From Desulfobacterales bacterium (GTDB lineage Bacteria > Desulfobacterota > UBA8473), in assembly GCA_016209225.1 (NCBI GenBank), contig JACQWO010000062.1, positions 1-34,611 on the forward strand: a stretch of DNA of 34,611 nt, written 5' to 3'. This document shows positions 10,790-12,406 of the stretch, in pieces (position 1 is the stretch's first letter; every line of letters starts with the position of its first letter). The position numbers and the translations under genes are program-made. The notes below the pieces were generated by a model. It was not told the DNA's origin, did not search any database, and was given only the letters and a program-made list of their open reading frames with translations.

Positions 10790-10837
10790 AAAGAAAACAA
10801 AAAAGCCATGGACGAAAAGGAAGAGCCCATGGCTTTT
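10790..10837 (-). terminator. Second terminator (T2) of the trp leader
   Basis: On the minus strand AAAAGCCATGGGC (plus positions 10825-10837) pairs with GTCCATGGCTTTT (10801-10813): 13 bp with one G-U pair and an 11-base loop, followed by a run of U with one G. It is a strong intrinsic terminator lying 26 bases beyond terminator T1 and before trpB2. The 5' arm can also pair with the 3' arm of T1 (8 of 9 positions including two G-U). Confidence 0.8.
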
Positions 10838-10842
10838 GATAT

Positions 10843-10880
10843 AAAAAAGGCCGCAGGCTACAGGATTTGCCCACGGTCTT
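10843..10880 (-). terminator. Attenuator terminator (T1) of the trp leader
   Basis: On the minus strand CCGUGGGC (plus 10869-10876) pairs with GCCUGCGG (10851-10858), 8 bp with two G-U pairs, with a 10-base loop, further outer pairs and six U residues after it. Its 5' arm overlaps the 3' arm of the antiterminator, so the two structures exclude each other. Confidence 0.8.
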
Positions 10881-10936
10881 CCATTGATTTTTACTTATTG
10901 ATTATTTAGTATCGAGTGAGAGGGGCGGGCAAATCC
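10863..10936 (-). promoter_or_regulatory. trp antiterminator hairpin
   Basis: GGATTTGCCC (plus 10927-10936, inside the leader peptide gene just after the Trp codons) is perfectly complementary to GGGCAAATCC (10863-10872). Forming this stem uses the GGGC needed for terminator T1. A ribosome stalled on the three Trp codons at 10953-10961 would leave the first arm free. The Trp-codon stretch GGUGG can itself pair with CCGCC next to that arm, giving a possible segment 1:2 stem as in enteric trp leaders. Confidence 0.75.
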
Positions 10937-11000
10937 ATAGTATGTAATTGTTCCACCACCAATTGCTATCGTAACTATAGGAGATTTCTTTGCCGCTCAT
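10902..11000 (-). CDS. trpL: trp operon leader peptide (Trp-Trp-Trp)
   Basis: This 32-codon ORF on the minus strand starts ATG at 11000-10998 and stops TAA at 10904-10902. Residues 14-16 are three consecutive Trp (NWWWNNY) and residue 22 is a fourth Trp; four Trp in 32 residues is far above normal use. It lies between a promoter-like sequence (11035-11062) and two intrinsic terminators, upstream of trpB2. The role is ribosome-mediated attenuation: low charged tRNA-Trp stalls the ribosome at the Trp codons, frees the antiterminator arm and lets transcription enter trpB2-E-G-D-C. The Shine-Dalgarno is weak (TAAGAG, or AAAAGGG farther upstream). The peptide itself probably has no function. Confidence 0.85.
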   Translation of the reverse strand: MSGKEISYSYDSNWWWNNYILWICPPLSLDTK

Positions 11001-11034
11001 ACTCTTAAAGCCCTTTTAATAAAGTGTACAATTC

Positions 11035-11088: not shown

Positions 11089-11115
11089 TTGACAAATTAA
11101 TCGTCAGCATATAAG
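11089..11115 (+). promoter_or_regulatory. Candidate aroF promoter
   Basis: A perfect -35 TTGACA (11089-11094) and a -10 TATAAG (11110-11115) are separated by 15 bases, slightly short but workable. Transcription would start near 11122, about 16 bases before the aromatic leader peptide. The -35 boxes of the two divergent promoters are only 26 bases apart, so one DNA-bound regulator could affect both. Confidence 0.55.
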
Positions 11116-11137
11116 AAAGATAAGAAAGGAGTCGGTC

Positions 11138-11224
11138 ATGTTGTTTTATTTTGCAAATTTTACATTTAAGATATTTTGCTGGCGGTTTTATTTTATCTTT
11201 ATAAAGTCTGCCCAGCATCCTTGA
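11138..11224 (+). CDS. Phe/Tyr-rich leader peptide of the DAHP synthase gene
   Basis: This 28-codon ORF begins ATG at 11138 and ends TGA at 11222-11224, with AAAGGAG 6 bases upstream. It contains 8 Phe, 2 Tyr and 1 Trp (for example MLFYFANFTF and CWRFYFIF), so 11 of 28 residues are aromatic. It is followed by an antiterminator/terminator pair and then by aroF, the first enzyme of aromatic amino acid synthesis. It resembles pheL/pheST-type leaders in principle, but I know of no named counterpart for this AroF type. It is too short for ordinary ORF calling. A ribosome resting on the stop codon would cover the antiterminator arm at 11205-11214; one stalled near residues 13-18 would leave it free. 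Confidence 0.83.
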   Translation: MLFYFANFTFKIFCWRFYFIFIKSAQHP

Positions 11225-11275
11225 ACTTAGATTTATAAAATAAAACACAACAGATATCAAGGCCATGGGCAGACT
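11205..11275 (+). promoter_or_regulatory. aroF antiterminator hairpin
   Basis: AGTCTGCCCA (11205-11214, overlapping the last codons of the leader peptide) is perfectly complementary to TGGGCAGACT (11266-11275). The second arm overlaps the 5' arm of terminator T1 (11259-11269), so antiterminator and terminator cannot coexist. Additional A/T pairing is possible between the early leader (TTGTTTTATTTT) and AAAATAAAACACAA at 11238-11250. Confidence 0.78.
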
Positions 11276-11306
11276 GAAGGCAAGACTCATGGCTTTTTTA
11301 TTTTTA
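11259..11306 (+). terminator. First terminator (T1) of the aroF leader
   Basis: AAGGCCATGGG (11259-11269) pairs with CTCATGGCTTT (11286-11296), 11 bp with two G-U pairs and a 16-base loop, followed by a U run interrupted by one A. It is preceded by the mutually exclusive antiterminator. Confidence 0.8.
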
Positions 11307-11327
11307 CATAGTACGTTAGTGTATATT

Positions 11328-11367
11328 AAGCCATGGGTGAAAAACTCATGGCTTTTTTATTTTTTTT
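11328..11367 (+). terminator. Second terminator (T2) of the aroF leader
   Basis: AAGCCATGGG (11328-11337) pairs with CTCATGGCTT (11345-11354), 10 bp with one G-U and a 7-base loop, followed by a long U run with a single A. The 5' arm GCCATGGGT can instead pair with ACTCATGGC (11285-11293), the 3' arm of T1, when T1 is not formed. The ATG at 11333 lies inside this hairpin and is not the aroF start. Confidence 0.8.
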
Positions 11368-11389
11368 AAATCTGCTTAGGAGGGGAAGG

Positions 11390-12406
11390 ATGATAATTGT
11401 AATGAAAGCAAAAGCAACAAAAGAGGAGTTGGAGGATGTTGTGAAGAAGATAGAAAAATTGGGGTATAAACCCCACATTATTCAGGGGGTAGAAAGGAGT
11501 GTCATTGGGGCTGTCGGTGACGAAAGGGGAAAGGCCAAACTGCAATCTTTGGAAGTCCTTCCTGGGGTTGAGAAGGTTGTTCCTATCCTTAAACCTTACA
11601 AACTCGCTAGTCGTGACATAAAGCCAGAGGGAACTGTTGTCAACATCGATGGCAAAGTAGAAATAGGCGGTAATAAGATAGTAGTTATTGCAGGGCCTTG
11701 TTCTGTTGAGAGTGAGGAACAGATCATAGAGTCAGCTCACATTGTAAAAGAAGCTGGCGCAGATATTCTCCGCGGCGGCGCCTTTAAGCCCCGGACTTCT
11801 CCGTACAGTTTTCAAGGCTTAGAAAAAAAGGGGCTGATCTTGCTCGCTAAAGCTAAAGAGAAGGTTGGGCTTCCAGTTGTAACTGAGATCATGAACCCTA
11901 AAGACGTGGATCTGGTTGCAGAATATTCAGATATTATGCAGGTTGGGGCAAGGAATGTCCAAAACTTTGCCCTTCTGAAAAAACTGGGGAAGCATAATAA
12001 ACCCATCTTGCTAAAACGAGGGATGTCTACCACTGTAGAGGAATTCTTGATGTCAGCAGAATACATACTCTCTGAAGGGAACAAAGACGTGATTTTGTGC
12101 GAGAGAGGCATAAGGACATTTGAAACCGCTACAAGAAATACCCTGGATTTGAGTTGTATTCCGGTTTTAAAAGAAAGAACCCATCTGCCTATAATTGTGG
12201 ATCCAAGTCATGCTACAGGGTTTTGGTCATATGTAGCTCCAATGTCGTATGCAGCAATTGCAGCAGGGGCCGATGGCCTGATGATAGAGGTGCATCCCAA
12301 TCCGGAAGATGCTGAAAGCGACGGTATTCAGTCCCTGAACCCCCATAAGTTTGCCGCTTTGATGGAGAATCTAAAAGCCTATATAGCGGCCGCAGGCAGG
12401 ATGTGA
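11390..12406 (+). CDS. aroF: 3-deoxy-7-phosphoheptulonate (DAHP) synthase, AroF/T. maritima type
   Basis: This enzyme condenses phosphoenolpyruvate and erythrose-4-phosphate, the first step of aromatic amino acid synthesis. It has 338 residues. The N-terminal ferredoxin-like regulatory domain (about 1-70, [18 protein letters not shown] onward) is typical of the Thermotoga-type enzyme that is inhibited allosterically by Tyr/Phe. The barrel follows with AGPCSVES (metal-binding Cys), [25 protein letters not shown] and DPSHATG. The ATG at 11390 is chosen because AGGAGGGG precedes it; the upstream ATG at 11333 lies in a terminator hairpin. Its transcript passes through a leader peptide and two terminators, so expression is probably tied to charged aromatic tRNAs. 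Confidence 0.96.

Follow-up and report, generated by a model that had tools for sequence, protein, structure and literature searches.

The aroF leader and its competing helices

The window analysed here, a stretch of 34,611 nucleotides from a Desulfobacterales bacterium, carries on its forward strand the gene aroF (11390..12406, with 11390 as the best start), coding for a type I-beta DAHP synthase with an N-terminal ferredoxin-like regulatory domain. This assignment is based on the presence of both PF00793 and PF18152, together with TIGR01361, which scored above its cut-off, and NF006421. The same genome contains a paralog, aroF2 (L002, G000:C86:42034-43038), which is 63% identical and has no leader. 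As read from the sequence, aroF2 sits behind the apparent end of pheA, and second paralogs tend to be placed likewise.

Upstream of aroF, a short open reading frame extends from an ATG at 11138 to a TGA at 11224 on the forward strand, preceded by the Shine-Dalgarno sequence AAGGAG (11126..11131), 6 nt 5' of the start codon. Translation of its 28 codons gives MLFYFANFTFKIFCWRFYFIFIKSAQHP, with eight Phe, two Tyr and one Trp residues, just as a previous sequence-only reading of this DNA had described; the ORF, predicted to be translated, is thus rich in codons for the amino acids of the pathway that aroF serves. As for the promoter-like element noted in that reading, the hexamers TTGACA (11089-11094) and TATAAG (11110-11115) are present on the forward strand (11089..11115) and both are kept in the sister species, but the 15-nt spacer between them is short and the pair was not listed by a promoter scan with spacers of 16-18 nt.

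The transcript downstream can adopt alternative structures. Region 1 (11177..11191) pairs with 11202-11218, forming a putative anti-antiterminator or pause hairpin, and region 2 (11205..11224; AGUCUGCCCA followed by CCUUGA) is the 5' strand of an antiterminator whose 3' strand, region 3 (11257..11275), overlaps the 5' arm (11259-11269) of a first terminator, T1 (11259..11299). The 3' arm of T1, region 4, spans 11286-11296, and its U-run 11294-11299. The 10-bp antiterminator pairing noted before, between 11205-11214 (AGTCTGCCCA) and 11266-11275 (TGGGCAGACT), is indeed perfectly complementary and overlaps the T1 5' arm. It is accompanied by a second helix of 6 bp, absent from that account, in which CCTTGA at 11219-11224, stop codon included, pairs with TCAAGG at 11257-11262; the computed duplex with both helices has an energy of -28.2 kcal/mol. 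Also overlooked was a second terminator after T1, here termed T2 (11328..11359), with a 5' arm (region 5, 11328-11338), a 3' arm (region 6, 11344-11354) and then a U-run; the gap of these tandem hairpins is 36, and region 5 is able to pair with region 4 too. Intrinsic terminators are thus found between leader and structural gene, together with a mutually exclusive antiterminator joining the 3' end of the ORF to the terminator 5' arm, and a protecting 1:2 helix.

This arrangement is more than chance. An RNA fold z of -2.96 was obtained, and the pattern GCCATG-N4-30-CATGGC has three matches in the window versus 0.03 expected. Across the 3.1-Mb genome, the GCCATG-CATGGC-U hairpin occurs only at T1 and T2 of aroF and at the second terminator of a divergent trp leader, the one further match being the opposite strand of the latter. 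Conservation among relatives, described below, points the same way.

Folding of the window transcript was computed with a ribosome placed at each codon and, as a simplification, about 14 nt beyond the A site covered. With stalls at F13, W15, F17, Y18 or F19 the 2:3 pairing was formed and T1 was absent, while T1 was formed with the ribosome at F21 or at the stop codon; stalls at the first Phe codons yielded mixed results. These results and the alignment of relatives delimit the predicted sensing codons as F13 C14 W15 R16 F17 Y18 F19 (11174..11194), and antitermination predicted at these stalls implies that the switch reads each of Phe, Tyr and Trp. In the proposed mechanism, when the three tRNAs are charged the ribosome would reach the leader stop codon and cover region 2, so that T1 would form and transcription would stop. 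Scarcity of any one charged tRNA would stall the ribosome at F13, W15, F17, Y18 or F19, masking region 1; regions 2 and 3 would then pair, T1 would not form and RNA polymerase would continue towards aroF.

Aromatic leaders in relatives and across the phylum

In three species of the same genus and one of the same family (loci L004, L005, L042 and L006), the leader and its Shine-Dalgarno sequence persist together with the antiterminator, both terminators and the block CAAGGCCATGGGCAGACT. In the alignment CWRFYF is invariant within the genus, and the rest of the peptide drifts. Both the aromatic codons and the competing stems, on whose persistence in close relatives the sequence-only reading had made its proposal depend, were therefore found in all four. 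Other relatives keep an aromatic leader while sharing neither sequence nor reading frame with that of the window.

The comparative search for Phe/Tyr-rich ORFs 5' of aroF that had been suggested there was carried out across the phylum: aroF was sought in 297 genomes and the upstream DNA was fetched, giving 135 regions. A strict detector looked for an ORF of 8-60 codons with a Shine-Dalgarno sequence and at least four F/Y/W per seven residues, and for a stem with a U-run no more than 140 nt away. It was passed by 40 of the 135 regions, a fraction that is biased as a frequency since five of the loci had been included after being reached through a match to the hairpin pattern or through one of their close relatives, and by none of the 135 reverse-complement controls. 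All passes corresponded to best-hit aroF genes (40/113), none to second paralogs (0/22). A relaxed and partly hand-picked set, in which the Shine-Dalgarno requirement was dropped and the remainder judged by eye, comprises 64 leaders in 25 families, with a terminator after every one; even with this relaxed reading, about 43% of the best-hit aroF genes showed no such leader. WWFYFYYWGGVCP, YFYWFYTYFALVCP and FFWFYFFRSPASG are examples.

The 64 leaders add up to 258 Phe, 224 Tyr and 73 Trp residues, and Phe and Tyr are found together in 60 of them. This composition is what would be expected for the enzyme of a common pathway, in contrast with the W-rich leaders of trp genes and the F-rich ones of some aminotransferase genes. 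Since W15 lies inside the sensing stretch and 51 of the 64 leaders hold all three residues, Trp is probably sensed too.

The pairings were then compared among loci. The ORF end paired with the T1 5' arm better than shuffled sequence (p <= 0.05) in 50 of 61 cases. In a permutation test in which strands were re-paired between families and pairing strength was compared within and between families (25 families), the three helices co-varied, with z values of -5.4 for 1:2, -6.8 for 2:3 and -9.9 for 3:4, each with 0/2000 permutations, while the control pairings 2:4 and 1:3 showed no co-variation in the same test (z +0.6 and +0.3). Strand pairs such as GTCTGCCC/GGGCAGAC, GAACCGCC/GGGTGGTTC and AGGTATGC/GCATACC differ between loci, so the pairing reflects more than mere conservation.

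These data bear on two other explanations. The window does show a T-rich leader region with TTT as its Phe codons, as would be the case if the aromatic run simply reflected AT-rich DNA (TTT/TAT codons) before an ordinary terminator, with no regulation. Very different aromatic leaders at aroF of other families, the lack of any pass among the reverse-complement controls and the co-variation of 2:3 and 1:2 argue against this idea, which we consider hardly credible. An RNA with alternative folds downstream of a leader could also be a switch of another type, acting through translation reinitiation or through direct binding of tRNA or amino acid, as T-boxes and riboswitches do; this appears very unlikely, given that neither the window nor any of 18 relatives gave a match at gathering score to an Rfam cis-regulatory family, T-box and riboswitches included, and that the switching helices overlap intrinsic U-run terminators and are located some 100 nt or further upstream of the aroF start, off its Shine-Dalgarno sequence. 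From the anatomy of the locus, its conservation and the co-variation of three helices, all directly seen, we infer that the leader is translated, that the ribosome stalls on it and that transcription terminates after it. Classical ribosome-mediated transcription attenuation is the likely mechanism, and there is a very high probability that the aroF attenuator reads charged tRNA-Phe, tRNA-Tyr and tRNA-Trp together. The earlier idea that this Thermotoga-type (DAHP_snth_FXD) enzyme is attenuated in response to Phe and Tyr is hence supported comparatively, with probable sensing of Trp and an apparently coupled second terminator as additions to it.

The second terminator

A close second terminator is present in 34 of the leaders, with a computed 4:5 pairing between the T1 3' arm and the T2 5' arm of -11.6 to -28.4 kcal/mol. 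In these 34 tandem loci (18 families), with strands of equal length, 4:5 co-varied with z -5.4 (0/5000), and the mirror pairing 3:6 was weaker, with z -3.0 (7/5000); no significant co-variation was found for 4:6 and 3:5 in the same loci by permutation. If T2 were merely a copy of T1, 3:6 should equal 4:5; on the other hand, T2 may descend from T1 and 3:6 shows a small excess as well, which weakens the case for coupling of the two. When the transcript was made to stop short of region 6, 4:5 was formed in 34/34 loci; with region 6 present, the complete T2 hairpin (5:6) was favoured at equilibrium in 19 loci, against 15 for 4:5. For the window species, 5:6 gave the lowest energy even with 2:3 formed, so a relay there must be kinetic.

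These results fit a relay in which one ribosome decision would set two terminators. In the antiterminated state, the freed region 4 would capture region 5 while region 6 had yet to be transcribed and T2 would be disarmed, while in the terminated state polymerases slipping past T1 would meet an intact T2. Alternatively, only T1 might be involved in classical attenuation, with T2 as an independent back-up or a relic of duplication and no role for 4:5. Such a reading, which we find possible though rather doubtful, agrees with T2 being at least as stable as 4:5 in those 19 loci, the window among them, with its absence from roughly half of the aroF leaders, and with the near-palindromic CCATGG/CCGTGG core common to all arms, which brings about some automatic cross-pairing. 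It does not readily explain why 4:5 co-varies across 18 families far more than the equivalent 3:6, nor why in many loci the 4:5 helix reaches beyond the T2 stem into its loop, an extension of no use to T2 itself; moreover, an uncoupled T2 would block expression in the starved state as well. On balance we lean slightly towards the three-signal relay attenuator, in which a single stall would control two tandem terminators through the T1 3' arm and the T2 5' arm in no fewer than 18 families of a single phylum, being less sure of it than of attenuation itself. If true, combining a single sensor with two terminators would be a novel means of making attenuation sharper.

Related candidate attenuators and known systems

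The hairpins of aroF have counterparts at other genes. A divergent trp operon in the window, with trpB-like, trpE, trpG and trpD genes, has a leader of its own that had been overlooked; on the reverse strand it is preceded by a Trp-rich leader ORF (10903..11001, containing SNWWWNNYILWICPP) bearing a WWW run and a further W, by a 10-bp antiterminator (GGATTTGCCC/GGGCAAATCC), and, at 10797..10884, the antiterminator 3' strand and tandem terminators, the second of which is a GCCATGG hairpin as at aroF. Pairing between the T1 3' and T2 5' arms is weaker there than at aroF (-13.7 kcal/mol). That CCATGG terminators might simply be customary throughout this genome was rejected, since only the two aromatic leaders carry them. 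Across the phylum the hairpin is strongly enriched over the reversed control, and 20 loci of this wider family were fetched, gene names besides aroF and the window trp genes being read from sequence. Among them are W-rich leaders before trp genes. In five loci (L149, L151, L156, L159 and L162) a gene resembling those of PLP-dependent aminotransferases lies behind F-rich leaders such as MKFNNFFFFFFVFTRAHPCP and MGRFFSFYFFYFYFGRGHP with a GCCATGG terminator, which suggests that this gene serves Phe/Tyr synthesis. The same kind of terminator was observed with the aromatic leader MFENTPTQAYYYRFYFRRGDCP before an indolepyruvate ferredoxin oxidoreductase alpha (iorA)-like gene (L158), and with the Leu-rich ORF MVSLRIRRLELLDLLLEPD before a 2-isopropylmalate synthase-like gene, apparently leuA (L168), which reads like the attenuator design of aroF applied to another amino acid. 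A trp/aro cluster from another phylum, that of Athalassotoga saccharophila, has an aroF preceded by the short ORF MTVLLSGNYWYYGCARFMVCRP with a terminator (L104, 2870-3000), and by eye CCCGGTTTATG/CATAAATCGGG is a candidate antiterminator pairing. No Rfam family matched among the examples scanned of this wider set of the phylum, for which the GCCATGG/GCCGTGG hairpins offer a comparative handle on attenuators of trp, aminotransferase, iorA-like and perhaps leuA-like genes.

Our literature search covered open-access sources; older comparative papers, including Vitreschak 2004 and Lopatovskaya 2010, may hold earlier in silico predictions. Within those sources we found no description of such attenuation for this enzyme type or phylum, no paper that treats attenuation of trp by a leader peptide in Geobacter or Desulfovibrio, and no report of two terminators coupled via a shared strand. 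While the mechanism class is ordinary and well supported, its breadth throughout the phylum, its use for this enzyme type and the pooling of three signals are new, and the relay is probably so. The locus points to probable attenuation of the first enzyme of aromatic synthesis across one phylum.

The type I-beta enzyme of the window differs in subtype from the DAHP synthase encoded by aroF of Corynebacterium glutamicum. The latter is nonetheless a precedent for attenuation of a DAHP synthase: in the aroR-aroF system, an aromatic leader peptide with the motif Phe-Tyr-Phe lies 5' of the gene and ribosome stalling raises transcription (Neshat et al., 2014; PMC11802643, PMC4046766). Both systems have an aromatic leader before a DAHP synthase gene, but they belong to different phyla, the short FYF motif there contrasts with a long F/Y/W run here, and tandem terminators, apparently coupled here, are not described for aroR-aroF in those sources. 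The Salmonella mgtCBR tandem attenuators (PMC3641672) share the name and a leader with short ORFs and attenuation, but two short ORFs act in that leader, whereas a single ORF is found here, with two terminators that a shared strand appears to link. The pheA and pheST leaders (Phe_leader, RF01859) have in common a Phe-rich leader and the 1:2 / 2:3 / 3:4 logic, and differ from the aroF leader, with its mixed F/Y/W content, its other target gene and its second terminator; the RF01859 model gave a weak whole-model match to the window, below cut-off (24.9 bits, gathering 55, E 0.088). The E. coli trp leader has a single terminator. The trp operon leader (trpL) is the mechanistic archetype of the switch proposed here, but it senses Trp only.
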